From a virus, in the IMG/VR virus record IMGVR_UViG_3300032326_000835, positions 1 to 52,366 of that record: a stretch of 52,366 nucleotides of DNA; one strand, 5' to 3'. Positions 4,275 to 35,539 of this stretch are shown here, in pieces. How positions within the stretch are numbered: the first letter of the stretch is position 1; each line of letters begins with the position of its first letter. Below the pieces are notes generated by a model, which was not told the DNA's origin, did not search any database, and was given only the letters and a program-made list of their open reading frames with translations. Made by a program: the position numbers and the translations under genes.

Positions 4275-4545
4275 GTCTAAAAGAATAGGTGCCAAACAGC
4301 ACAAGAATTCTGGTAGAAATACGCAAAAGGGAGACGCTTCTTGGAAGAACTTTGTTGTAGATTTTAAAGAGGTTGGAAAATCTTTTACTCTTAATAAAGA
4401 GGTTTGGGCTAAGGCCACTACAGATGCCATGAAAAATGGAAAAGATCCAGCCATAGTTGTAGTTATTGGAGAGGGAAACTCTAAGGTTAGACTTGCTATA
4501 ATTGAGATGAGCATTTTAGAACAACTTTCAGAGAATGGTGTATAA
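4258..4545 (+). CDS. Probable PD-(D/E)XK nuclease, Hjc-like resolvase
   Basis: 95 aa from a TTG start at 4258, chosen because AAAAGGAG lies about 6 nt upstream; an in-frame TTG at 4234 has no ribosome site. The order GAKQHKNSG, KGDAS, then FVVDFKEV, then an FTLNKEVW helix and IVVVIG matches small phage and archaeal Holliday-junction resolvases of the PD-(D/E)XK fold. The candidate catalytic residues are the Asp of KGD and the D-F-K of VVDFKE. It overlaps the zinc-ribbon gene and sits between recA and RuvC-like genes, as a recombination nuclease would. The fold call is moderate because the motif is short. Confidence 0.6.
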   Translation: MTEKSESKRIGAKQHKNSGRNTQKGDASWKNFVVDFKEVGKSFTLNKEVWAKATTDAMKNGKDPAIVVVIGEGNSKVRLAIIEMSILEQLSENGV

Positions 4546-4552
4546 TAGAACT
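4541..4552 (+). promoter_or_regulatory. Leaderless-type -10 box (TATAAT, 6 nt before ATG)
   Basis: TATAAT at 4541-4546 is followed by 6 nt and ATG at 4553, so transcription would start at the ATG itself. No good -35 is visible. This is the first of 17 genes in the window with identical geometry. Confidence 0.6.
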
Positions 4553-5242
4553 ATGAATACAGGATATGAACCAAAAAATAAAATAGTTCCACACATAGTC
4601 AAAAACTTCTTTACTGAAGAAGAAGTAGAGGTTTTACTTGCAATTGTTAAGTATCAAAAAAATGCTAAAGATCTTGATGCTTTTTACTCCCCCATTGTCT
4701 TGGCTGAATTATCAAGAATGCAGATAGAGGTTATGTATCCGATAACCATACGTAAAAAACTTGAAATGTTTGCATCAAATTTGGTTGGAGAAGAAGTTTT
4801 TATGTCTCATAATAGTTATTTAAGTTACAATAAAGAGCATAACTCTACATCAAATCCAAAACTACCCGTACACTACGATTCAGATAATTATTTTTCTAAA
4901 CTAACAATTGATTACCAATTAAATGCCAATATAGATTGGCCGATAGTAATTGAAAATGAAAGTTTTAATCTTCAGTACGGAGATCTTCTTGTATTTTGGG
5001 GTGCTGGTCAGGTACACTGGAGAGAGCCAGTATTATTTAAAGAGGGAGACAACACTGAAGTTTTGACAATGCATTTTTCAACAATAGAAGATTATAACAA
5101 GTTAAACAATGTTTCTCGTGATCCAGAAGCAAGAAAAGATAGGCTTAGATTATGGCAATCAGATCCAGTATTCTTAAAGTATAATGAAGATTTTTTTGAA
5201 AAAGAAGGAAATCTAACTAAAACAAACAACAACAACTCTTAA
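4553..5242 (+). CDS. Putative 2OG-Fe(II) oxygenase-like protein
   Basis: 229 aa. The pattern H107-Y-D109, then a beta-strand block (GDLLVFWGAG) and a distal H155 in QVHWRE matches the Fe(II) facial triad of double-stranded beta-helix oxygenases. The 2OG-binding arginine cannot be placed with confidence. The start at 4553 follows the leaderless -10 box; an upstream GTG-type start at 4535 is possible but overlaps the previous gene. It is one of seven such enzymes in the window. Substrate unknown. Confidence 0.6.
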   Translation: MNTGYEPKNKIVPHIVKNFFTEEEVEVLLAIVKYQKNAKDLDAFYSPIVLAELSRMQIEVMYPITIRKKLEMFASNLVGEEVFMSHNSYLSYNKEHNSTSNPKLPVHYDSDNYFSKLTIDYQLNANIDWPIVIENESFNLQYGDLLVFWGAGQVHWREPVLFKEGDNTEVLTMHFSTIEDYNKLNNVSRDPEARKDRLRLWQSDPVFLKYNEDFFEKEGNLTKTNNNNS

Positions 5243-15844: not shown

Positions 15845-16741
15845 ATGAAGAAAGCACTACTAGCACTATTATCAGCAGCACTACTAGTTACAGTAACACA
15901 GCCAGCACAAGCAGAAGATCAAAAAGTCCTTGCGATTATTGATACTGCTATTAACTCAAAAAATTTCTCATCAATCATACACGAAGTTTGTTTTACTAGT
16001 GTAAAGTCAGCAACTCCTTCTCAAAATATGTCATGTTCTAATGGTGAACTATTTATGGAAGGAACTGGGGCAGCATCTGCTCCATGGCCAGCATCTCTCA
16101 ATAATGGAACATACCATGGAGATACAATGGTTAAGGCAGCGCTTGTAAACAATCCAAACATTAAAATTGTTTTTATTAGAGTTTACAATGTTTCTTCTCT
16201 TGGTAATTCGTCAACTCCTTATGATGGGTCAACAATTATCAAGGCTTTGGACTGGATAAATAACAATGCATCAAAGTATAGCATTGATGCTATTTCAGTA
16301 AGTCTGTCTGGAATTAATACTGCGACAAAGTCACTACACATTGGGTGCACAGATCCAGCAATTCTAAATCCATTTCAAAATCAAGTTGCAATGCTAAATT
16401 CAAAAAATGTTCCTACTTTTGTTGCTACTGGTAACGACAGACTAACTACCATTGTTGGTTTCCCAGCATGTGTGCCAGGAGTAATTGGTGTTGGGGCACT
16501 TGGAAATGAGACTCAACTTGAAAAAGCAACAAACTCTGGTCCAGGACTAGACATGGTTGCACGATCAACAGTAAGCATTACAAAGTATAATGGATCACCA
16601 ATAAATACTTCTGGAACTTCTGTAGCATCTGTAGTATCAGCAGCATCATATGTAAATCGTAATACCTTTAAAACTTTTGGAGAGTATTTATCTTCTCTTC
16701 CTAAGATTTTAATTGGCACTGCGTCATATATTCGTAACTAA
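15845..16741 (+). CDS. Secreted subtilisin-like serine protease (S8)
   Basis: 298 aa with a clear signal peptide ending AQA-E near residue 23. The catalytic triad is visible: D33 (LAIIDTAIN), H91 (TYHGDTMV) and S259 (NTSGTSVAS), with oxyanion-hole N197 (VATGNDR). There is no obvious propeptide, and the enzyme is near the lower size limit of subtilases. A secreted protease in a phage could trim surface proteins such as S-layers, including the one encoded upstream. Confidence 0.92.
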   Translation: MKKALLALLSAALLVTVTQPAQAEDQKVLAIIDTAINSKNFSSIIHEVCFTSVKSATPSQNMSCSNGELFMEGTGAASAPWPASLNNGTYHGDTMVKAALVNNPNIKIVFIRVYNVSSLGNSSTPYDGSTIIKALDWINNNASKYSIDAISVSLSGINTATKSLHIGCTDPAILNPFQNQVAMLNSKNVPTFVATGNDRLTTIVGFPACVPGVIGVGALGNETQLEKATNSGPGLDMVARSTVSITKYNGSPINTSGTSVASVVSAASYVNRNTFKTFGEYLSSLPKILIGTASYIRN

Positions 16742-16899: not shown

Positions 16900-17565
16900 G
16901 TGTTAAATTCAAATGTGCCCGTATTAAGGCCCAGCAAAGAGCATAAGTTTTTTGAAAGATATCTAGATAATGATTTAGAAGAGTTGTCAAAATTTTTAGA
17001 AAAAAAGTATGCGATGATTGAAAATGCAACCTTGCCTGGTGTAACATCAATGGAAAAAGATAAAGGAATTTTTCTAGAGTCTGGAAGTTTGTCAACAGTT
17101 AAATGGAAAGAATATAATGTGTTTCAGTTTTACCATGCATCTTTACACAAACTGTACAAAGCAATATCTGATACCGTCAAAGAAGCCTGCGAATACTATG
17201 AGGTAGATTTTGACAAGCAGGACTACTATATACAAGGCTGGTTTAACATTAATAGAGCAGAAGTAGGAAAGTTAGATTATCATGATCACGGGGCACCAGG
17301 CGCTCCAAACTTTCATGGCTACTACTGTGTAAATGCAGAGCCATCGATAACTCACTATAAATTATTTAATGATCCTTCACGAATTGTTGACAATGTAAAT
17401 AAAAATAACAGACTAGTGGTTTCAGAAGTTGGCCATCCACATGCTATGGGTGATTGGGACTGGACTGGACCAAGAATTACTATTGCGTATGATGTTCAGC
17501 CTTTAGAGGTATTGATTTCTGCAGGAAATACTATACCAGAGCAGCACTGGTTTCCATTACTATAG
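16900..17565 (+). CDS. 2OG-Fe(II) oxygenase-like protein (HxH type)
   Basis: 221 aa from GTG 16900. The strand GWFNINRAEVG followed by H128-D-H130, then GYYCVN, a distal histidine (H179 or H181 in GHPHAMG) and R192 in PRITIAYDV matches phage 2OG-oxygenases of the TIGR02466-like kind. It sits between tRNA-Asn and the carbamoyltransferase. Substrate unknown. Confidence 0.7.
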   Translation: MLNSNVPVLRPSKEHKFFERYLDNDLEELSKFLEKKYAMIENATLPGVTSMEKDKGIFLESGSLSTVKWKEYNVFQFYHASLHKLYKAISDTVKEACEYYEVDFDKQDYYIQGWFNINRAEVGKLDYHDHGAPGAPNFHGYYCVNAEPSITHYKLFNDPSRIVDNVNKNNRLVVSEVGHPHAMGDWDWTGPRITIAYDVQPLEVLISAGNTIPEQHWFPLL

Positions 17566-17662: not shown

Positions 17663-19084
17663 GTGATAATTCTTGGAGTTAATGAAACCTCTCACGATGC
17701 TTCCGTGTCTTTGATTGAAAATGGGAAAATATTATTTGCTGGTCATGCAGAAAGATATAGTAAACAAAAAAATGACTGGTACATCAATGATAGTTTAATA
17801 AAAGATGCTTTACAGTATGGCAGACCAGATTGCCTTGCCTACTATGAAAAGCCTTTCCTAAAGGCCTCTAGGCTGCTTCTAAAGGGTGGTGCTGGAGACT
17901 GGAAGCCACGCTTTAATCTTACTGGTGTGCCAAGAAAATCCTTTGGACACCACTATTCTCATGCTGCTGCTGGATACTATACTAGTCCTTTTAATGATGC
18001 AGTAATAGTTGTTTTAGATGCTATTGGTGAATATAATACTTCTACCATCTGGGTTGGAGAAGGTAAAAAGATTAAACTAAAATATAAGCAAAACTATCCA
18101 ATTAGTTTTGGCTTATTTTATTCAGCGTTTACACAACTCATTGGACTTATGCCAAATCAAGAAGAATATATTATGATGGGAATGGCTGCATATGGTGATT
18201 GGAAAAAATACTATAAAAAAGTAGATAACTATTTCCCTAACTATCATACACAAAAATATAACTTTCATAAAGGTATAACTGATTGGGGATGGGTTTCTGA
18301 AGAAGATAAGTTTGATATTGCTGCTGCAGTACAGGCAGTGTATACAACAAGGCTTATGGAATTTATGTTTGAAGCAAAAGCAATTACTGGTAAAAAGAAT
18401 TTAGTATTTATGGGTGGGTGTGCCCTTAACTCATCAGCAAACACATCTTTGTGGAAATTATTTGATATGGTTTGGATAATGCCAAATCCTGGAGATGCTG
18501 GAAGTTCTTTAGGCGCTGCTGCTGCCCTGTATGGAGATCATGTTGAATGGAGTAGCCCATACATCGGATATGATCTTGGTGGAGAATATCCTATTCAAAA
18601 AATTGTTGACGGTATACTTAAAGATGGCATAGTAGCAGTTGCATCTGGTAGAGCAGAATATGGCCCAAGAGCATTGGGTAACAGATCAATTCTTGCAGAC
18701 CCAAGAGACCCATCAATAAAAGATAAGGTAAATAAGATTAAACAAAGAGAACTTTTTAGACCTTTTGCTCCTGTTGTTTTGGCTGACCATGCACATAAGT
18801 GGTTTGATATGGATTTTGAAAGCCCATATATGCAGTATACGGTCAAGTGTTTAAAACCAGAAAAGATACCCTCTGTAGTTCACGAAGATGGCACCTCTAG
18901 GGTTCAGACAGTTACAAGAGAGCAGCACCCAGGACTCTATAGGGTAATAAATAAGTTCTACCTTCAGACTGGAGTTCCAGTTCTTTTAAATACTAGTCTT
19001 AATATAAAAGGGCAGCCTCTTTTAAATGATGAAAACGATATACTTAAATGGGAAAAAGAATATAACTTTACAATATGTAGGTAA
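17663..19084 (+). CDS. Carbamoyltransferase, NodU/CmcH family
   Basis: 473 aa from GTG 17663. N-terminal LGVNETSHDAS (H11, D12) and FGHHYSHAAAGYY (H96, H97, H100) form the metal/carbamoyl-adenylate site, MGGCALNSSAN is the Kae1-like nucleotide loop, and GRAEYGPRALGNRSILADPR marks the C-terminal half. These enzymes transfer carbamoyl from carbamoyl phosphate via carbamoyl-AMP to a hydroxyl group. At 473 residues it is shorter than many relatives (about 550-600), mostly at the C-terminus. It may decorate a glycan, nucleoside or natural product. Confidence 0.92.
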   Translation: MIILGVNETSHDASVSLIENGKILFAGHAERYSKQKNDWYINDSLIKDALQYGRPDCLAYYEKPFLKASRLLLKGGAGDWKPRFNLTGVPRKSFGHHYSHAAAGYYTSPFNDAVIVVLDAIGEYNTSTIWVGEGKKIKLKYKQNYPISFGLFYSAFTQLIGLMPNQEEYIMMGMAAYGDWKKYYKKVDNYFPNYHTQKYNFHKGITDWGWVSEEDKFDIAAAVQAVYTTRLMEFMFEAKAITGKKNLVFMGGCALNSSANTSLWKLFDMVWIMPNPGDAGSSLGAAAALYGDHVEWSSPYIGYDLGGEYPIQKIVDGILKDGIVAVASGRAEYGPRALGNRSILADPRDPSIKDKVNKIKQRELFRPFAPVVLADHAHKWFDMDFESPYMQYTVKCLKPEKIPSVVHEDGTSRVQTVTREQHPGLYRVINKFYLQTGVPVLLNTSLNIKGQPLLNDENDILKWEKEYNFTICR

Positions 19085-22928: not shown

Positions 22929-23210
22929 ATGAATAAGTTTAAATGGAAAGATAATGCCGTTTGTTTAGACTACGATACAAACTTATTTTTTGAAAAATAT
23001 GAAGATGATGAATTGCTAAGGCCAGCAATTGACAGTTTGTGCTCTTCTTGCCCAGTAAGGAAAGAATGTTTTTCTGTTGGAATTTCTGGTAAAGAGTGGG
23101 GTGTTTGGGGTGGAGTTTATTTAGAAGGCGGAGAAGTCTCTAAAGAATTTTCTAGCCATAAGAGCAAAATTGACTGGGGAAAAACCTGGCAGTCTTTAAC
23201 AATGGAGTAG
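22929..23210 (+). CDS. whiB: WhiB-family Fe-S transcription factor
   Basis: 93 aa. The four cluster cysteines are C12, C38, C41 and C47 (C-x25-C-x2-C-x5-C), followed by the G-V-W-G-G turn at 58-62 that contacts sigma factor. The C-terminus is basic. WhiB proteins occur only in Actinobacteria and their phages, so this is the best host marker in the window. It probably redirects host transcription. Confidence 0.95.
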   Translation: MNKFKWKDNAVCLDYDTNLFFEKYEDDELLRPAIDSLCSSCPVRKECFSVGISGKEWGVWGGVYLEGGEVSKEFSSHKSKIDWGKTWQSLTME

Positions 23211-23451: not shown

Positions 23452-23855
23452 CTCAGTCAATATTATTAGTTATCTTATCAATAACATCTACAACCATGGC
23501 TTTTCTTTTTTATATTCAAAAAAGAAGAAATGAACAGATGATTGCTCATACAGTACAATTCCTTCTACTGAATGAAGAGCAAAAAGAAAATGAAAAAACG
23601 GATAAAGAAAAGGCTAATGAAGATTTTTTAAAATTCATTTCAGATTCTCGTGATTGGGCATATGCCTATATAGATGAGGTACAGGCATCCTTAAATAAGT
23701 TTATTACTGATATTGAGCCAGAGATTAATTATTTTAATGAGTACGGAGACATTGGTTCAATGTCACCCAACTATGACTCCATGAAAAAAATTACTGTGTC
23801 CTATGAAGAATTAAAGAAACTGCTACCAGAAGACTATGGTAAAATAGATACATGA
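23448..23855 (+). CDS. N-terminally anchored membrane protein
   Basis: 135 aa from GTG 23448. A hydrophobic segment (ILLVILSITSTTMAFLFYI) is followed by a long charged helix and a small C-terminal domain, a type common in actinophages. It overlaps the oxygenase gene by 4 nt. Confidence 0.7.
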   Translation: MTQSILLVILSITSTTMAFLFYIQKRRNEQMIAHTVQFLLLNEEQKENEKTDKEKANEDFLKFISDSRDWAYAYIDEVQASLNKFITDIEPEINYFNEYGDIGSMSPNYDSMKKITVSYEELKKLLPEDYGKIDT

Positions 23856-24454
23856 TAACGAACCCTTCCGAAAAAGATGAAATCTATTTAGCAAATGTTG
23901 CAAAAATAGGAAACTCTACAGACAACATACAATATATAGAAAATGTGCTACCTGAAGAAGATCACAGGATTCTTCTTGATTACGCAAAGTCTGCCGACTC
24001 TTGGAAAGAGCAACCTTGGAAGGCTATAACTATTGAATCAGAAAAGTTGCCCGAAGAGATTAGAGAAATGCTAAACAAAATATTTGAACTTGTTTATAAA
24101 AGGTCCGTAGAACTTTATGATGTAGCCATTAATCCTTTTCACAAGTCTGCACTTCATATAGTCAAGTTTGTAAAAGGTTTTTATTTGGATCCACATGTAG
24201 ATACATTATCATCTGAGGGCAACCACATTGCCTCAGTATATTATATTAATGATGACTACACTGGTGGAGAACTTAACTTTCCAGATCACAATTTAAACAT
24301 TAAGCCAAAGCCTAACAGTTTAGTTATTTTCCCTGGCAATGAAAATTATTTGCATGAAGTCCGTAAGATTGTTGACAACGACAGATACAGTTCTGCTATG
24401 TGGCTTCAGTTCACTGGCTCCACCTTTAATAAAAAAGCAGAATGGTATAACTAA
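23852..24454 (+). CDS. 2OG-Fe(II) oxygenase, prolyl-4-hydroxylase type
   Basis: 200 aa. The triad is H115-V-D117 and H168 (YLHEV), with the 2OG-binding R178 (NDRYSSAMW). The conserved YYINDDYTGGELNF and NSLVIFPGN segments between them are diagnostic of the P4Hc family. The target residue or metabolite is unknown. A paralog follows directly. Confidence 0.92.
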   Translation: MITNPSEKDEIYLANVAKIGNSTDNIQYIENVLPEEDHRILLDYAKSADSWKEQPWKAITIESEKLPEEIREMLNKIFELVYKRSVELYDVAINPFHKSALHIVKFVKGFYLDPHVDTLSSEGNHIASVYYINDDYTGGELNFPDHNLNIKPKPNSLVIFPGNENYLHEVRKIVDNDRYSSAMWLQFTGSTFNKKAEWYN

Positions 24455-24457
24455 CAT

Positions 24458-25012
24458 ATGACAAACTATAACTTAGGAAATTCTGTAGATAATATACAAA
24501 TTACAGAAAACGTTTTATCTAAAGAAGAGCACCAGTCCTTGCTTAATTATGTAGAAAGCGTTGATTCTTGGGATGCTATGCCATGGGGAGTTAAAGTCTT
24601 GGAATCAGGAGAAGTAGCAAAAGAATTTTCTGAGATCTTAGATAAAGTTTTTATGATTGCCCATAAAAAATCTACAGACTTTTATAATGTTGATCTTAAT
24701 GTTTTTGAAAAAACATCTGTTCCTTTAATTAAATTTGAAAAAGGATATAAGATGAATGAGCATGCAGACACTACAGGAGACATTGCAGCAATATATTATA
24801 TTAATGATGATTACGAAGGGGGAGAGATAAATTTTATGGACCACAACTTAAAGATTAAGCCAAAGGCTAACAGTTTTATAACATTCCCAAGTAATGCAGA
24901 CTACTGGCATGAGGTGCTAGAAAATACTGTAAAGGAAAGATACTCTTCTACCCTCTGGTTTCATTTTGCTGGATCTAGCCCTATTAGGCCAAAATTAGGT
25001 TTAACCAGGTAA
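24458..25012 (+). CDS. 2OG-Fe(II) oxygenase, tandem paralog
   Basis: 184 aa with the same layout as its neighbour: H102-A-D104, YYINDDYEGGEINF, H151 (YWHEV) and R161 (KERYSSTLW). The shared openings (GNS-DNIQ-ENVL) show tandem duplication followed by divergence. All catalytic residues are intact. Confidence 0.92.
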   Translation: MTNYNLGNSVDNIQITENVLSKEEHQSLLNYVESVDSWDAMPWGVKVLESGEVAKEFSEILDKVFMIAHKKSTDFYNVDLNVFEKTSVPLIKFEKGYKMNEHADTTGDIAAIYYINDDYEGGEINFMDHNLKIKPKANSFITFPSNADYWHEVLENTVKERYSSTLWFHFAGSSPIRPKLGLTR

Positions 25013-27270: not shown

Positions 27271-27912
27271 ATGGCTATAATTACAAAACAAAATCTAATA
27301 GATGCTAAAAAAGAACGCAAACTTTTCGTTGTAAAAGATTTTTGTAAAGATTTTCCTTCGTGGGAATATGTAGACAATTTTTATGATCTTGCAAAAGAAA
27401 CTAAAACCATAGACTATAACTCTATTGGAACTTTTGTAATTGAAGAAGATCCCAGAGTTTTTGATTATTATAAAAAGGCAATATCAGATATTTCTTTATT
27501 TTACAAAGGCCATGTTATGTTTTCAATGATGATAGTTCATTTTATAAATAGAAATGACAATAGGATGATAGATAAAAATCTAAAAAACCTTTTTTCAAAA
27601 TTCACTATGGATAATTCTAAAAAAATTCCAGTGGAACTTACAATTAAAGAAGATGGCGTAGACGGATGGCCAATCGAATGGTGGGACCCAACGGTGCATT
27701 CAGATGCAGAAGACAGGTTCTTTATTCAGGGTAGTGGACAAAGCCTATGGAAGGTTTTTCATGACAACAAAGAAATAAATTATGAGGTGTTGTTGAGCCC
27801 TGGTGATATGGCATACATACCAAAAGGCGTAATTCATAGTGTTGAATCAATGTGCCCAAGGCACTCGGTAAGCATAGCCTTCTCTGACGACCCAGAGATT
27901 CTTAGGGCATAG
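27271..27912 (+). CDS. JmjC/cupin-type Fe(II) oxygenase-like protein
   Basis: 213 aa. WWDPTVHSDAED provides H143-S-D145, then FFIQGSGQSLWKVF, and LSPGDMAYIPKGVIHSV provides H189, the cupin metal triad of JmjC-like hydroxylases. The start follows TGC-TATAAT with a 6-nt gap (leaderless). Substrate could be a protein, but this is inference. Confidence 0.75.
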   Translation: MAIITKQNLIDAKKERKLFVVKDFCKDFPSWEYVDNFYDLAKETKTIDYNSIGTFVIEEDPRVFDYYKKAISDISLFYKGHVMFSMMIVHFINRNDNRMIDKNLKNLFSKFTMDNSKKIPVELTIKEDGVDGWPIEWWDPTVHSDAEDRFFIQGSGQSLWKVFHDNKEINYEVLLSPGDMAYIPKGVIHSVESMCPRHSVSIAFSDDPEILRA

Positions 27913-28901: not shown

Positions 28902-28929
28902 AACCACAGTATAGCACAATCATATTTTG

Positions 28930-29002
28930 TACCCCTGGCAAGAATCGAACTTGCGACGCATGGCTTAGAAGTCCATCGTTCTGTCCACTGAACTACAGAG
29001 GT
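28930..29002 (-). tRNA. tRNA-Arg(TCT)
   Basis: Acceptor ACCTCTG/CAGGGGT, anticodon loop CTTCTAA with TCT (28977-28979 on the + strand), T-arm with GTTCGATTC. Reads AGA/AGG, codons used often in this AT-rich genome. Confidence 0.92.
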
Positions 29003-29003
29003 G

Positions 29004-29089
29004 TGGCGGAAGTAATAGGATTCGAACCTATGGATCTTTCAATCTACGATTTAGCAAACCGCTGCATTCGACCACTCTGCCATACTTCC
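29004..29089 (-). tRNA. tRNA-Ser(GCT)
   Basis: Acceptor GGAAGTA/TACTTCC, discriminator G, encoded CCA. Anticodon loop TTGCTAA (GCT at 29053-29055) and a long variable arm typical of class II tRNAs. Confidence 0.93.
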
Positions 29090-29090
29090 G

Positions 29091-29163
29091 TATCTCCAAC
29101 GGGATTCGAACCCGTGTTGCCACCGTGAAAGGGTGGAGTCCTAGGCCTCTAGACCATGGAGAC
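29091..29163 (-). tRNA. tRNA-Glu(TTC)
   Basis: Acceptor GTCTCCA/TGGAGAT with a G-T end pair, anticodon stem CCACC/GGTGG around CTTTCAC (TTC at 29127-29129), T-loop GTTCGAATC. Confidence 0.92.
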
Positions 29164-29164
29164 T

Positions 29165-29238
29165 TGGAGCGGATGATCAGAATCGAACTGACCCCTTCTG
29201 CTTGGAAGGCAGAGGCACTACCAATATGCAACATCCGC
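29165..29238 (-). tRNA. tRNA-Gly(TCC)
   Basis: Acceptor GCGGATG/CATCCGC, discriminator T, encoded CCA. Anticodon stem TCTGC/GCAGA around CTTCCAA (TCC at 29204-29206). Confidence 0.93.
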
Positions 29239-29242
29239 ATCG

Positions 29243-29316
29243 TACATCTGGAAGGACTTGAACCTTCGGCTCTCTGCATATAAGGCAGGTACTCTAACCA
29301 ACTGAGTTACAGATGT
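29243..29316 (-). tRNA. tRNA-Ile(TAT)
   Basis: Acceptor ACATCTG/CAGATGT, loop CTTATAT giving anticodon TAT (29280-29282), T-arm with GTTCAAGTC. It would read AUA directly; most bacteria use a CAT tRNA modified to lysidine instead. One mismatch lies at the base of the anticodon stem. Confidence 0.85.
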
Positions 29317-29320
29317 GTAG

Positions 29321-29394
29321 TACACCAGGTAGGACTTGAACCTACGATAACCGAATTATGAGTTCGGGGCCTTAACCAACTTGGCTACTGGTGC
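29321..29394 (-). tRNA. tRNA-Met(CAT)
   Basis: Acceptor GCACCAG/CTGGTGT, anticodon stem CCGAA/TTCGG around CTCATAA (CAT at 29358-29360). It lacks the GGG/CCC anticodon-stem pairs of an initiator. Elongator Met is most likely; Ile2 (lysidine) cannot be excluded. Confidence 0.9.
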
Positions 29395-30604: not shown

Positions 30605-30633
30605 ATTATACATCCTGTCTCTTTCTGTGTCAA
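30605..30633 (-). promoter_or_regulatory. Consensus leaderless promoter
   Basis: Reading the - strand: TTGACA (30628-30633), 17 nt, TATAAT (30605-30610), then 6 nt to ATG 30598. It is the clearest example of the leaderless class because both hexamers are perfect. Confidence 0.88.
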
Positions 30634-31637
30634 GCCTGATCTTTTTTGCTATGTAGGCTATAGAAAAGATCTGCAACATGGTTTTGATAATGAACTCCTG
30701 GATGAGCACGACTTTCATCTTTTTTATAGTTTATTATAGAGTAGTCTGAGCCTTCGTTCCAGTACCTAGTGAATATAAAATCAGACTTATGAGATGATTT
30801 ACAGGTTCTTCTTATGGAAAAATTAAGACTTTCTATTGGATTAATTGGTAAAAGAAATGAAAAATTATTTAATTTAAAATCTTTTATATTTGTTAGTTTT
30901 TCCATTACCAAAGAACTTGCTACATCCCAAGTTGTCCAGTGTAACTTTATATTATTTAACAAGCAAAAGGACTCTAAAATGTAAATAAAGTTTATGGAGT
31001 TTAAAATTAATTGATGTGGAGAAGTTGCGTCTTCTATATATTTTTGATCATCTATTTCCATAAATACAGAGTCAGACTTTGTATCTTTATGTACTTGAGG
31101 ATTAGAAAAGGTTAATCGCAAATGTTCGTTATTGTCAAGTCTTCTTTTTACTTTTGATTTATAAAATTCTTTGTCTACTACAACCATATTTCTAAAAAAA
31201 TCTGGAAACAAGCAAAAAATTTCTTTTGGCATTTTATTATTTAAACAGTATCTAATAATAGTATTACACATAGTTTCTACAGATGCCCCAGGACTTCCTA
31301 GGTTTAAAACATTTTTATTTATCTTATTACCTAAAATATTTGTCCATCTTCCAGATTCTGGAATACCGAGACCAAAAGTTATTGAGCAACCAACTCCAAT
31401 TACATCGGGAGATTCATAGACTTCTCCACGAAAACCAAGACTATTAATTTCATATTCATTATGCTCATCAACTGTTCCCATAAAAGAGTCGCCGTTTGGA
31501 GAATTTGCAACAACACCCTTAGCATATGGAGAATAAAGTCCCATACTTCCACTGTTTGTAAAATATTTTGTAAGGTACCAGTCGGTATTGTTGTTAATTT
31601 CGTAAAATTTTAAAATATCATTTGTGAAATAGGGCAT
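30630..31637 (-). CDS. SGNH/GDSL hydrolase-like protein
   Basis: 335 aa. NSLGFRGEV and VIGVGCSITFG (nucleophile S85 in G-C-S instead of G-D-S), NLGSPGASVETM (block II Gly) and late RAHPGVHYQNH (H312) follow the SGNH order. The usual DxxH aspartate is displaced, so activity is uncertain. Relatives act on acyl or acetyl esters of glycans. TATAAT lies 5 nt before the ATG. Confidence 0.7.
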   Translation of the reverse strand: MPYFTNDILKFYEINNNTDWYLTKYFTNSGSMGLYSPYAKGVVANSPNGDSFMGTVDEHNEYEINSLGFRGEVYESPDVIGVGCSITFGLGIPESGRWTNILGNKINKNVLNLGSPGASVETMCNTIIRYCLNNKMPKEIFCLFPDFFRNMVVVDKEFYKSKVKRRLDNNEHLRLTFSNPQVHKDTKSDSVFMEIDDQKYIEDATSPHQLILNSINFIYILESFCLLNNIKLHWTTWDVASSLVMEKLTNIKDFKLNNFSFLLPINPIESLNFSIRRTCKSSHKSDFIFTRYWNEGSDYSIINYKKDESRAHPGVHYQNHVADLFYSLHSKKDQA

Positions 31638-32204: not shown

Positions 32205-32747
32205 CTATATAATAATTTTTCTTTCTAACATTTTATTGTAATAGAAATAACACAGACCCATATTAATATCATCTAAAATATTTTTGTTATATGATAATAT
32301 TTTTTTGCTTGATGGTAAATAAGTTTTTTCGTATATATGTGGCATTTTATTAAAATTTTTATAATCTTCTTTTTTTATTTCTAATAGTTCTATAATTTTT
32401 TTAATTACATCATCTGGATGTAATATAAGATCGTTAAAGTCAATAACATAATCTGCATGCTCATATAAAAAATTATTAAGGGTTATATATTCTGACATTA
32501 TTTGATGAAGCCTAATGTTTTGCCAAGATACACGGCTTGAATTATTTATTTCTTCTATTGCTCTGTAAGAAATAATACTATTTTTGGGATCCCTAACGAT
32601 TGTAATTATTTTTCTTGTTTTATTATTATTTTTATCAAACAATAAATCTACTGAATGAGACTTGTCAAAATGAATTCCTTCTTTTTTATAAAGAAGTTCG
32701 TCAAAATAGTGAGACCCACTTCTTGGAAATGTTACCAAATACGGCAT
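32205..32747 (-). CDS. Sulfotransferase-like protein
   Basis: 180 aa. TFPRSGSHYFDELL is the 5'-phosphosulfate loop and IVRDPKNSIISYRA the 3'-phosphate motif of PAPS sulfotransferases. The enzyme is small for the family. It would move sulfate to a hydroxyl on a glycan, lipid or small molecule. Confidence 0.8.
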   Translation of the reverse strand: MPYLVTFPRSGSHYFDELLYKKEGIHFDKSHSVDLLFDKNNNKTRKIITIVRDPKNSIISYRAIEEINNSSRVSWQNIRLHQIMSEYITLNNFLYEHADYVIDFNDLILHPDDVIKKIIELLEIKKEDYKNFNKMPHIYEKTYLPSSKKILSYNKNILDDINMGLCYFYYNKMLERKIII

Positions 32748-32892: not shown

Positions 32893-34320
32893 TTAGACAA
32901 AATCAAACCATAGAGGCATTATGTATCTTGATCCATGTGTAGGTGCAACATCATGCCAATAATTCATGTTTCCAGGGTATAGAATTAAATCGCCAGCCTT
33001 TGGTTTAAACGACAAGCCTTGATGGATAAAAGATAGTTCTCCACCATCATAATTATCATTTAAATATACCCAGCCTGCTAAATGGTTTGAATCTTTACGC
33101 CCCATATCATTTATTGGTATTGATTTACTATTGTTGTGTACCCACTGAGCAAAGCGAGAATTTCTTGCTTTTAGTTTTACTCCGTACTCTTTTTCTAATA
33201 AAGCCTGAACTTGAGGAATATACTTTTCTGAATAGGTAAGTGAGTCATAATATAGCAAAGATATAGCAGGCCAGCCAGCATCGTCATTCTGTAGACGACG
33301 ATTATTGCTTGTCTCTGTACTATTTATAAGTTCTATAATATGATCACATTCTTCTTTGCTTAAATAATTATTAAATACCTTTACATTACTAGGATCACTT
33401 CCAATATTGTTAAAGTTTTGTACCGTTAGGTCAGAGTAACCTATGACATTTCCTTCAGGAACGACAATATCATTAAAGTTTTTTACTAATTCTAATAGAC
33501 GACTAATGTCTGCTTGGTCAGTATGAATCATAAAGTCATAAATGCCAAATTTTTCAGATAGGTTTCTTATTTGTGCAACAACATCAATCATTGATCCTTT
33601 TATTAGATGGTGTTGCTGTCTAACTGGTGCATTCTTATCATACTTAACATGCTTTTCATCATCTGGATGATTCATTATAAGTGGGTCAACAATAACTATT
33701 GGTTTTACCTTATCTAGATCAATCTTTTTAAACTGATCTCTAAACAATAGATTATCGTCAACATAAATATATTCACAATGCTTATTTGCTATTCTAATTG
33801 TTGTGTCTGAAGAGCCAACTACAGCCATATGGGTTTTATGTTCATGATTTTTCATTAAAGCCATTACCTTGTCCATCCAGACTTCAGATATGGCAACTCT
33901 TTTTTCAAGAGTATCAATCAGCGCTGGATCGTGCATGTAATGATCTATTACTAACTTTTCAGAATGACCATTACCTTCATCACCCCATCTTCCAGCAACC
34001 ATGTTTACTCCAATTCTTCCAGGAGCAAAACGATTTAAAGTTTCAAGAATCTTTGCAGCATAGTCTGGGCTTACTCCATATGCTGGCAAAGCGATTGTCA
34101 TTATCAGTTGATTTGTTTTTTCTAATGCCTCTTTTATAACTAATGAAAAATCAATCCCCCCTGGACCATATGGGAGCAAAACAGATTTTACATTAGCATC
34201 ATCTAGTTCTTGGGCCATCTTAAGAATTCCATTAAGGTCTAAGTGTTCAATGCTGTCATTTATTTGCCAGTGTCTTCTCCACATCCAGTGAAATGTTATA
34301 GGCTTATTAGTACTATCCAT
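32893..34320 (-). CDS. Luciferase-like monooxygenase fused to a 2OG-oxygenase fold
   Basis: 475 aa. Residues 1-295 match the flavin-dependent luciferase/SsuD barrel: HWMWRRHWQ, LPAYGVSPDYAAKILETLNRFAPGR and VNMVAGRWGDEG. Residues 310-475 are a P4Hc-type domain with WVYLNDNYDGGELSF, GDLILYPGN, H456 (YWHDV) and R465. Aligned with its neighbour, the first metal ligand of the H-x-D motif is Ile (I403-N-D405). The C-terminal domain may therefore bind metal weakly or serve only for binding. I know of no family with this pair of domains. It is co-transcribed with the two genes upstream. Confidence 0.85.
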   Translation of the reverse strand: MDSTNKPITFHWMWRRHWQINDSIEHLDLNGILKMAQELDDANVKSVLLPYGPGGIDFSLVIKEALEKTNQLIMTIALPAYGVSPDYAAKILETLNRFAPGRIGVNMVAGRWGDEGNGHSEKLVIDHYMHDPALIDTLEKRVAISEVWMDKVMALMKNHEHKTHMAVVGSSDTTIRIANKHCEYIYVDDNLLFRDQFKKIDLDKVKPIVIVDPLIMNHPDDEKHVKYDKNAPVRQQHHLIKGSMIDVVAQIRNLSEKFGIYDFMIHTDQADISRLLELVKNFNDIVVPEGNVIGYSDLTVQNFNNIGSDPSNVKVFNNYLSKEECDHIIELINSTETSNNRRLQNDDAGWPAISLLYYDSLTYSEKYIPQVQALLEKEYGVKLKARNSRFAQWVHNNSKSIPINDMGRKDSNHLAGWVYLNDNYDGGELSFIHQGLSFKPKAGDLILYPGNMNYWHDVAPTHGSRYIMPLWFDFV

Positions 34321-34564
34321 TTTTTATCACTCTTCCTTTTGTTTTAAACCAAGAACCTATCTTGGATTGTGCGACTTTACTTCTAAGAAGTTCACCAAAT
34401 GTTTCATGAGATATTTCTGAACCAAGATACTCTTGTCCAGTTTCAAGATCAATGAGTTTCCACTTCCCTGGCGCTCTTGTATGTAAGATCAAATCAATGG
34501 GATACTCATAATCATTTACTTCAGAACCATCTAAAAGAATTCTTTTTTTTATATTTTCTGTCAT
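34313..34564 (-). CDS. Hypothetical protein in the oxygenase operon
   Basis: 83 aa between two oxygenase genes, overlapping the fusion gene by 8 nt. Beta-rich, with LHTRAPGKWKLIDLETGQEYLG and a basic C-terminus. It might be a partner subunit, but nothing was recognised. Confidence 0.75.
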   Translation of the reverse strand: MTENIKKRILLDGSEVNDYEYPIDLILHTRAPGKWKLIDLETGQEYLGSEISHETFGELLRSKVAQSKIGSWFKTKGRVIKNG

Positions 34565-34565
34565 A

Positions 34566-35180
34566 TTAAACTATCGTAAACCAAATTGGAAGTGTATACC
34601 TTGTTCCAGACAATACTTCTTTAACCTCATGAGGGTAGTGTAAATTGCCTGGGAAGACAATGAAGTCTCCAATATTAGGCTTTATAGAAACATCATGAAG
34701 TCCAAAACTAATTTCTCCACCTTCATATGAATCATTTAAATAAACCAATACTGGCAGATGATTGTCTGTAACATACCCTAAATCATCAACATGCAACTTT
34801 AGGTATGTTCCTTCTGTCCACTTTACAACACTAAGATGTGGTTCTTTTGCTCTAATTTTTTCTTTTTCAATGCCATATGCTTTACATATTTGCTCTTTAC
34901 ATCGTTCTATTATATTGTTAATATCTTTGACACCACTGTACTGATGCATATATGTTATAGCGTTTCCTTCGTTATCTTTTTGAGACACAAAACTGATACA
35001 ATTTCTATTATCTATGTCCTCCAGCAAGTATTCAATTTCTTTTTTTGTTAAAAAATTAGGGATAACCTTAATATTTTCTGCGGAATTTCCAATCCTATGA
35101 AAAAATTCCATATATGATTCATTTCTTTCTATGCTTGGAGGATCATTTCCAACAGGTATTCCATTAACTATATAGGCCAT
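34566..35180 (-). CDS. 2OG-Fe(II) oxygenase, prolyl-4-hydroxylase type
   Basis: 204 aa from ATG 35180 (leaderless). The triad is H130-V-D132 and H184 (YPHEV), with R194 (GTRYTLPIW). VYLNDSYEGGEISF is diagnostic. First gene of the operon that ends with the luciferase-like fusion. Confidence 0.92.
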   Translation of the reverse strand: MAYIVNGIPVGNDPPSIERNESYMEFFHRIGNSAENIKVIPNFLTKKEIEYLLEDIDNRNCISFVSQKDNEGNAITYMHQYSGVKDINNIIERCKEQICKAYGIEKEKIRAKEPHLSVVKWTEGTYLKLHVDDLGYVTDNHLPVLVYLNDSYEGGEISFGLHDVSIKPNIGDFIVFPGNLHYPHEVKEVLSGTRYTLPIWFTIV

Positions 35181-35186
35181 ACAACC

Positions 35187-35218
35187 ATTATACACTATGA
35201 GTGGATTTGAAGTATAAT
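35187..35218. promoter_or_regulatory. Back-to-back leaderless promoters
   Basis: ATTATA at 35187-35192 (- strand TATAAT) is 6 nt from ATG 35180, and TATAAT at 35213-35218 is 6 nt from ATG 35225 on the + strand. The 44-bp gap holds both -10 boxes and little else. Confidence 0.75.
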
Positions 35219-35224
35219 AGGATA

Positions 35225-35539
35225 ATGACCCTACTATATATTTTGTATAGCCCTGCATACCGTGCCATTAAAATAGGTATATCAGATGTCTCAGGCAGAA
35301 GATATGCAAGTCATAGGACTAAGGGATGGATATTGATAAAGTATTGGTGGTTTTCCGAACGGGATAAGGCAAGAGCAATAGAATCCCTAGTAGTACAAAC
35401 ACTTACTAAGAAGCATGGATACTTCTTAGATAAAAAAGATATGCCTCAAGGCGGATACACTGAGACATTTGATGCGTCTAAGATAACTCGAAAAGGCTTG
35501 ATCCGTATGGTCAATAGGGCTATAAAGGACCTGTCGTAA
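35225..35539 (+). CDS. GIY-YIG nuclease-like protein (T5orf172/MUG113 type)
   Basis: 104 aa. TLLYILYSP, AIKIGISD and GRRYASHRTKGW form the first half of the GIY-YIG core in its T5orf172 variant, and the metal-site Glu lies in RAIESLVVQTL. It is the only + strand gene in the long - strand block. Could be a mobile or host-DNA nuclease. Confidence 0.75.
   Translation: MTLLYILYSPAYRAIKIGISDVSGRRYASHRTKGWILIKYWWFSERDKARAIESLVVQTLTKKHGYFLDKKDMPQGGYTETFDASKITRKGLIRMVNRAIKDLS

Follow-up and report, generated by a model that had tools for sequence, protein, structure and literature searches.

A phage luciferase-like barrel fused to an iron-less P4H-type domain and encoded in one operon with an intact P4H

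Among the genes of aquatic phages that still lack an explanation, those for 2OG oxygenases rank with the most common. In PepI, an F420-dependent protein with the luciferase-like (LLM) fold, the catalytic residue is His62. MsuD, another protein of this fold, is a tetramer with defined flavin contacts (PMC8234197). In the prolyl hydroxylases OGFOD1/Tpa1, which have tandem double-stranded beta-helix (DSBH) domains, a catalytic domain is accompanied by a metal-less one, and the latter has been proposed to recognize partners or substrates (PMC4396695). The locus described here comes from a 52,366-bp IMG/VR virus record, analysed at full length (hereafter, the window). It encodes a luciferase-like barrel fused to a P4H-type domain with a lost iron site, next to a separate gene for an intact P4H (Table 1).

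Table 1. Coordinates of the fusion gene, its parts and the associated genes in the window.
Feature	Coordinates	Strand	Evidence or remark
475-aa LLM:pseudo-P4H fusion protein	32893..34320	-	single ORF; fused homologues; AF2 model
N-terminal luciferase-like (beta/alpha)8 barrel, residues 1-284	33469..34320	-	NCBIfam, model, Foldseek
Linker, approximately residues 285-299	33424..33468	-	split homologues have a stop, an RBS and a new ATG here
C-terminal pseudo-P4H (double-stranded beta-helix), residues 300-475	32896..33423	-	Pfam PF13640, AF2, Foldseek, ligand columns
u83, 83-aa protein	34313..34564	-	84-96% conserved among the matches listed
Intact P4H (HVD...H...R), upstream, same operon	34566..35258	-	Pfam PF13640 1.3e-11; H/D/H/R 71/71
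Sulfotransferase-like gene, downstream	32205..32747	-	Pfam Sulfotransfer_1 2.2e-6
SGNH/GDSL-like gene, downstream	30630..31637 (listed start; true start may differ)	-	weak Lipase_GDSL_3 match, E=0.023
Two further intact P4H genes	23852..25012	+	in relatives the pair is followed by LLM2; LLM2 absent in the window

The initial annotation described a single 475-aa ORF without giving its strand; the ORF is indeed single and lies on the minus strand, the plus strand over the same interval being full of stops. The AlphaFold (AF2) model of the full protein has a mean pLDDT of 80.7 and a pTM of 0.63. IMG/VR was scanned with each half of the protein (N-half, best 80 of 130 loci; C-half, 55 loci). Among the matches listed, ORF analysis placed both halves in one frame in about 77 other viral contigs, and the fused homologues are 62-94% identical to the window protein over the full length. 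The full-length form thus recurs in dozens of independent contigs, which confirms that the fusion exceeds chance. The nearest relatives among these matches differ by half, L005 for the N-half and L016 for the C-half, which suggests recombination between phages inside the fusion gene.

In nine contigs among the matches listed (L072, L074, L076-L079, L083, L113 and L115) the two halves are adjacent genes. Here the end of the barrel reads ...AAGGAGTTTAATTAATATG..., that is, a stop codon followed by a new start in a different frame, with a Shine-Dalgarno sequence shortly before that start; judging by this Shine-Dalgarno sequence, these versions show that the pseudo-domain can be produced as a protein of its own alongside the barrel. 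In the tree of C-domains the split rows occur in three places amid fused rows. The member that diverges most, L063, is fused; it sits on a long branch, and the base of the tree is poorly resolved. Thus, the simplest history would be two or three fissions of a fused ancestor. Separate genes in homologues had been named beforehand as a sign of an assembly fusion, and split homologues do exist. However, they appear to be derived, in two or three lineages, and are set against fused contigs from many metagenomes with an open frame under strong purifying selection. Hence an assembly join was rejected, dozens of contigs carrying the same fusion, and an artefact of any kind, a decaying gene included, is hardly credible.

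The C-half belongs to the P4Hc type, as proposed initially: it matches Pfam 2OG-FeII_Oxy_3 (PF13640) above the cut-off (2.1e-8), and when modelled separately (AF2, pLDDT 86) it forms a P4H/PHD-type DSBH, with PHD2, PiuC, a viral P4H (vCPH) and a bacterial P4H as the best Foldseek matches in the PDB. It is about one third identical to its intact P4H neighbour, and in the tree the pseudo-domains form a clade of their own.

The ligand positions were read from one gapless alignment of 58 fused or split pseudo-domains and 71 intact P4Hs from the same contigs. All of the latter have the H, D and H iron ligands and the 2OG-binding Arg (71/71). In the window protein, the corresponding columns are P402 (first His), I403 (x), N404 (Asp), H456 (distal His) and R465 (Arg). 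The initial annotation had placed I403-N-D405 on the H-x-D motif; the loss of the first His stands, but that placement needs a gap and was rejected, the residues in register being P402-I403-N404. It had also foreseen that a shifted alignment might restore an intact HxD, and although the shift by one is real, an intact HxD is found in none of the domains. The first His is absent from 58 of 58 pseudo-domains (P, S, A, R or Q instead), the Asp column holds D in 52 and N in six, and the Arg is present in all 58. H456 and R465 do align with the distal His and the 2OG-binding Arg, as had been stated, but the family has Tyr at position 456 in 55 of 58 members and His in three. The window protein is thus a lineage exception, with H456 kept or regained and Asp replaced by Asn, most relatives showing the reverse. 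D405 falls on the second Asp of HVDD, a conserved position, and since it is almost as conserved in the intact P4Hs (66/71), its role is probably structural. Other possible metal ligands were considered: intact P4Hs, too, mostly have His in the H413 and H453 columns, and H395 is not adjacent to the triad columns; no new triad is proposed.

It is near certain from these columns that the HxD...H iron triad would not form in any member of the family, which would make the domain a pseudo-oxygenase. One may still suppose that the C-domain works as an oxygenase through some unusual metal site, in view of the invariant R465 and D405 and of H456 in the window protein; however, the first His is missing throughout, the distal position is nearly always Tyr, the window protein has Asn in the Asp column, and D405 is probably structural, so that activity of the C-domain seems highly improbable. 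The earlier proposal of two oxidation chemistries in one enzyme is accordingly unsupported, as the oxygenase half would be unable to form the 2-His-1-carboxylate triad. At the same time, the domain shows no decay: the median dN/dS over sequence pairs (Nei-Gojobori, many pairs being near saturation) is approximately 0.17 for the pseudo-domain vs. 0.10 for the barrel, and both halves are under purifying selection. The binding-only role, which had been offered as the other option, is well supported for the P4H half by the family-wide loss of the iron site together with this selection. The invariant R465 might still allow the C-domain to bind 2OG or another dicarboxylate.

The intact P4H named by the initial annotation as an operon partner is present, and the order intact P4H - u83 - LLM - pseudo-P4H is constant. 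Among the loci found through u83 that had enough flank, u83 is followed by the LLM gene in 79 of 79 and preceded by a P4H gene in 76 of 76. The genes are tightly packed: the P4H stop and the u83 start are one base apart, and ATGGATAG is common to the u83 stop and the start codon of the fusion gene, which overlap. The split-gene versions retain the LLM and pseudo-P4H pair. The conservation of u83 is like that of the barrel, and over its initial 54 residues it is similar to the C-terminus of a T4-like RmlA-like nucleotidyltransferase fused to a kinase-like domain (phrog_4098); a T4-like phage gene of this type sits between the DNA polymerase and uvsX genes. Frequent though variable neighbours are the sulfotransferase-like, SGNH-like and HAD genes; the first of these is present often, not always. 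No RNA elements were found around the operon.

A distant second phage LLM (LLM2) of about 265 aa was observed in L252 (5085-5882, minus strand) and also in L259-L264; it has lost the GSSD flavin-phosphate motif. In the related phage G004 the LLM2 gene directly follows two intact P4Hs, and this P4H-P4H-LLM2 arrangement occurs in six loci in all. Thus, the coupling of LLM and P4H genes recurs.

These arrangements bear on the possibility that the protein is a flavoenzyme whose C-domain serves only for oligomerisation or stability, with no functional tie to the intact P4H. Bacterial LLM enzymes can be oligomeric, as the MsuD tetramer shows (PMC8234197), and the barrel varies less than the pseudo-domain; nevertheless, the invariant linkage to the intact P4H (76/76 loci), the separate LLM2-P4H coupling and the retention of the pair in split versions make this explanation unlikely. 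Since the iron site is lost and the domain is always beside an intact hydroxylase, we would rather regard the dead half as a docking or substrate-binding piece, not a second enzyme.

The luciferase-type assignment of the N-half holds by structure, while its sequence matches are weak. The AlphaFold model comprises eight beta/alpha units (residues 9 to 284), that is, the (beta/alpha)8 barrel of the LLM fold, and its best Foldseek matches in the PDB are SsuD, MsuD, PepI (F420), SfnG and LadA, with E of about 1e-12 for SsuD, MsuD and PepI; the best viral structural match is a stand-alone phage luciferase-like protein. By sequence, Pfam Bac_luciferase (PF00296) is matched below its gathering cut-off (E=0.037; 13.8 bits vs. 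27.9), and none of the six related records passes it (0/6). The NCBIfam SsuD models are matched at 1.6e-7, and by all 19 members of an alignment; the TIGR03565 equivalog is matched at 29 bits vs. a cut-off of 518 bits. The PDB sequence match is MsuD (3.6e-5).

The MsuD flavin contacts (PMC8234197) were transferred to the barrel via profile alignment to E. coli SsuD, the rest by hand, the alignment with SsuD/MsuD being uncertain past residue 183. N104, V106, G108, H123, S177 and S178 of MsuD are kept as N106, V108, G110, H127, S170 and S171, while at the positions of T49, R77, G109 and W195 the barrel has other residues, and the R126/Y127 region has an insertion. By hand alignment and secondary structure, the equivalents of the sulfonate-binding R225, H227 and R296 and the lid are absent, the segment between strands 7 and 8 is much shorter, and the strand-7 motif is VDPLI instead of IRLH. 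Invariance is 98% or higher at approximately 57% of the barrel's positions, and the HWMWRRHW loop after strand 1 is invariant. No flavin reductase was found among the window ORFs tested. Flavin binding by the barrel is plausible from the kept residues, although cofactor binding could be altered or lost, given the missing MsuD contacts and lid.

An SsuD-type desulfonase was rejected on these grounds, the scores being far under the cut-offs and the sulfonate-binding residues and the lid absent. The broader idea of an auxiliary metabolic enzyme, an alkanesulfonate monooxygenase that would scavenge sulfur as SsuD does and carry an acquired P4H remnant, draws on SsuD and MsuD being the closest curated models and structures; it seems very unlikely, as about 30 bits are reached against cut-offs above 500, the sulfonate-binding Arg/His and lid are lacking, ssu genes were not found nearby, and the P4H remnant is under selection.

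A somewhat more serious, still rather unlikely alternative is that neither half is catalytic and that the protein as a whole serves the intact P4H, and perhaps u83 as well, as a binding adaptor or scaffold. The C-half is metal-dead, the barrel lacks the lid and many of the MsuD contacts, its Pfam match is under the cut-off, and LLM2 has lost its phosphate-binding motif. On the other hand, the near-invariant barrel positions include the O2-pocket Asn, GSSD and the entire loop after strand 1, which is an active-site-like pattern.

We tentatively favour a barrel of the flavin type whose pseudo-oxygenase domain would serve for docking or substrate binding and would cooperate with the intact P4H, a reading with a chance slightly short of even. 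Under this scheme the N-terminal barrel would most likely bind flavin (FMN, possibly F420) and perform the chemistry, and the iron-less C-terminal P4H-type domain would be a non-catalytic docking or substrate-binding module, which probably brings the barrel to the target of the intact P4H or into a complex with it. The intact P4H, encoded two genes upstream, or its substrate would be the natural partner of the dead domain. The target may be a protein, peptide or glycan co-modified by the P4H, sulfotransferase and SGNH products. A bolder and rather doubtful extension is a new kind of phage oxidation complex, in which the dead P4H domain physically joins a flavin/F420 barrel to an active Fe(II)/2OG hydroxylase for two successive redox steps on one target, with repeated origins of LLM-P4H coupling among actinophages. 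The favoured reading predicts a protein complex and a substrate-recruiting pseudo-oxygenase, and a constant partner joining a flavin-type barrel and a dead oxygenase copy offers a handle on phage 2OG oxygenases.

The host appears to be an actinobacterium, since the window carries a WhiB gene (22929-23210, Pfam 1.8e-11), and WhiB has been used as the rule for an actinobacterial host in freshwater actinophages (PMC6802176, PMC10202952). The phages carrying the fusion, a large uncultivated group, probably infect freshwater actinobacteria, the freshwater setting being inferred. The oxygenase set of the window (4535-5242, 16900-17565, 23852-24454, 24458-25012, 27271-27912 and 34566-35258) consists of three intact P4Hs, two likely 2OG/cupin proteins with no Pfam match and one JmjC_2/cupin protein. 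The fusion gene and its intact P4H neighbour match phrog_2297, phrog_274 and phrog_3531, which are P4H-type oxygenases; the labels there ("DNA endonuclease", "DNA endonuclease V", "ferrochelatase") are probably annotation errors. The window also contains a NodU/TobZ-type carbamoyltransferase gene (17663-19084, plus strand; Pfam 1.6e-54) that is also conserved among related phages, a cluster of six genes for tRNAs (Arg, Ser, Glu, Gly, Ile and Met; 28929-29394, minus strand) and, at 15845-16741 (plus strand), an ORF whose product has the subtilisin-like motif GTSVAS and probably a signal peptide and which, on a reading of its sequence, may encode a secreted phage protease.

The component folds are known, and the LLM:pseudo-P4H architecture is new as far as the collections searched show. 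No close relative of the barrel was found by tblastn in 50,697 phage records; isolated phages gave one weak match (E=0.2), an SsuD-like gene of a record that lacks annotation. No cellular source was found in approximately 85,000 prokaryote genomes with two exact peptide patterns, which is weak evidence, and the literature searched held nothing relevant on phage LLMs or LLM-P4H fusions.

Compared with the FMNH2-dependent group C enzymes SsuD and MsuD, the phage barrel has the same fold (28% identity over core residues 26-183, hhalign) and keeps several of the flavin phosphate and O2-pocket residues, others being changed, but it is about 100 residues shorter, has no lid or sulfonate-binding residues and carries the P4H-like fusion. 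PepI, a class I F420-dependent oxidoreductase, is similarly compact (in Foldseek the TM-score, scaled to the length of PepI, is about 0.7), at only 11-13% sequence identity. The stand-alone phage LLMs A0A6J7WN64 and A0A6J7WQ01 (BFVD) are short barrels, 18% and 16% identical to the query, and neither these nor LLM2 has a fused pseudo-P4H; LLM2 lies near P4H genes and is without GSSD. The C-half shares fold and family with phage P4Hc-type 2OG-Fe(II) oxygenases (PHROG 61, 2297 and 274), but its iron ligands are lost family-wide and it is fused or adjacent to an LLM barrel. In OGFOD1/Tpa1, likewise, a P4H-type catalytic domain works with a metal-less DSBH domain, and our docking or substrate-binding reading of the dead domain follows the proposal made for that system (PMC4396695). 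However, there the two domains form one eukaryotic polypeptide, whereas in the phage the dead domain has a flavin-type barrel as its fusion partner, and a separate gene encodes the live P4H.
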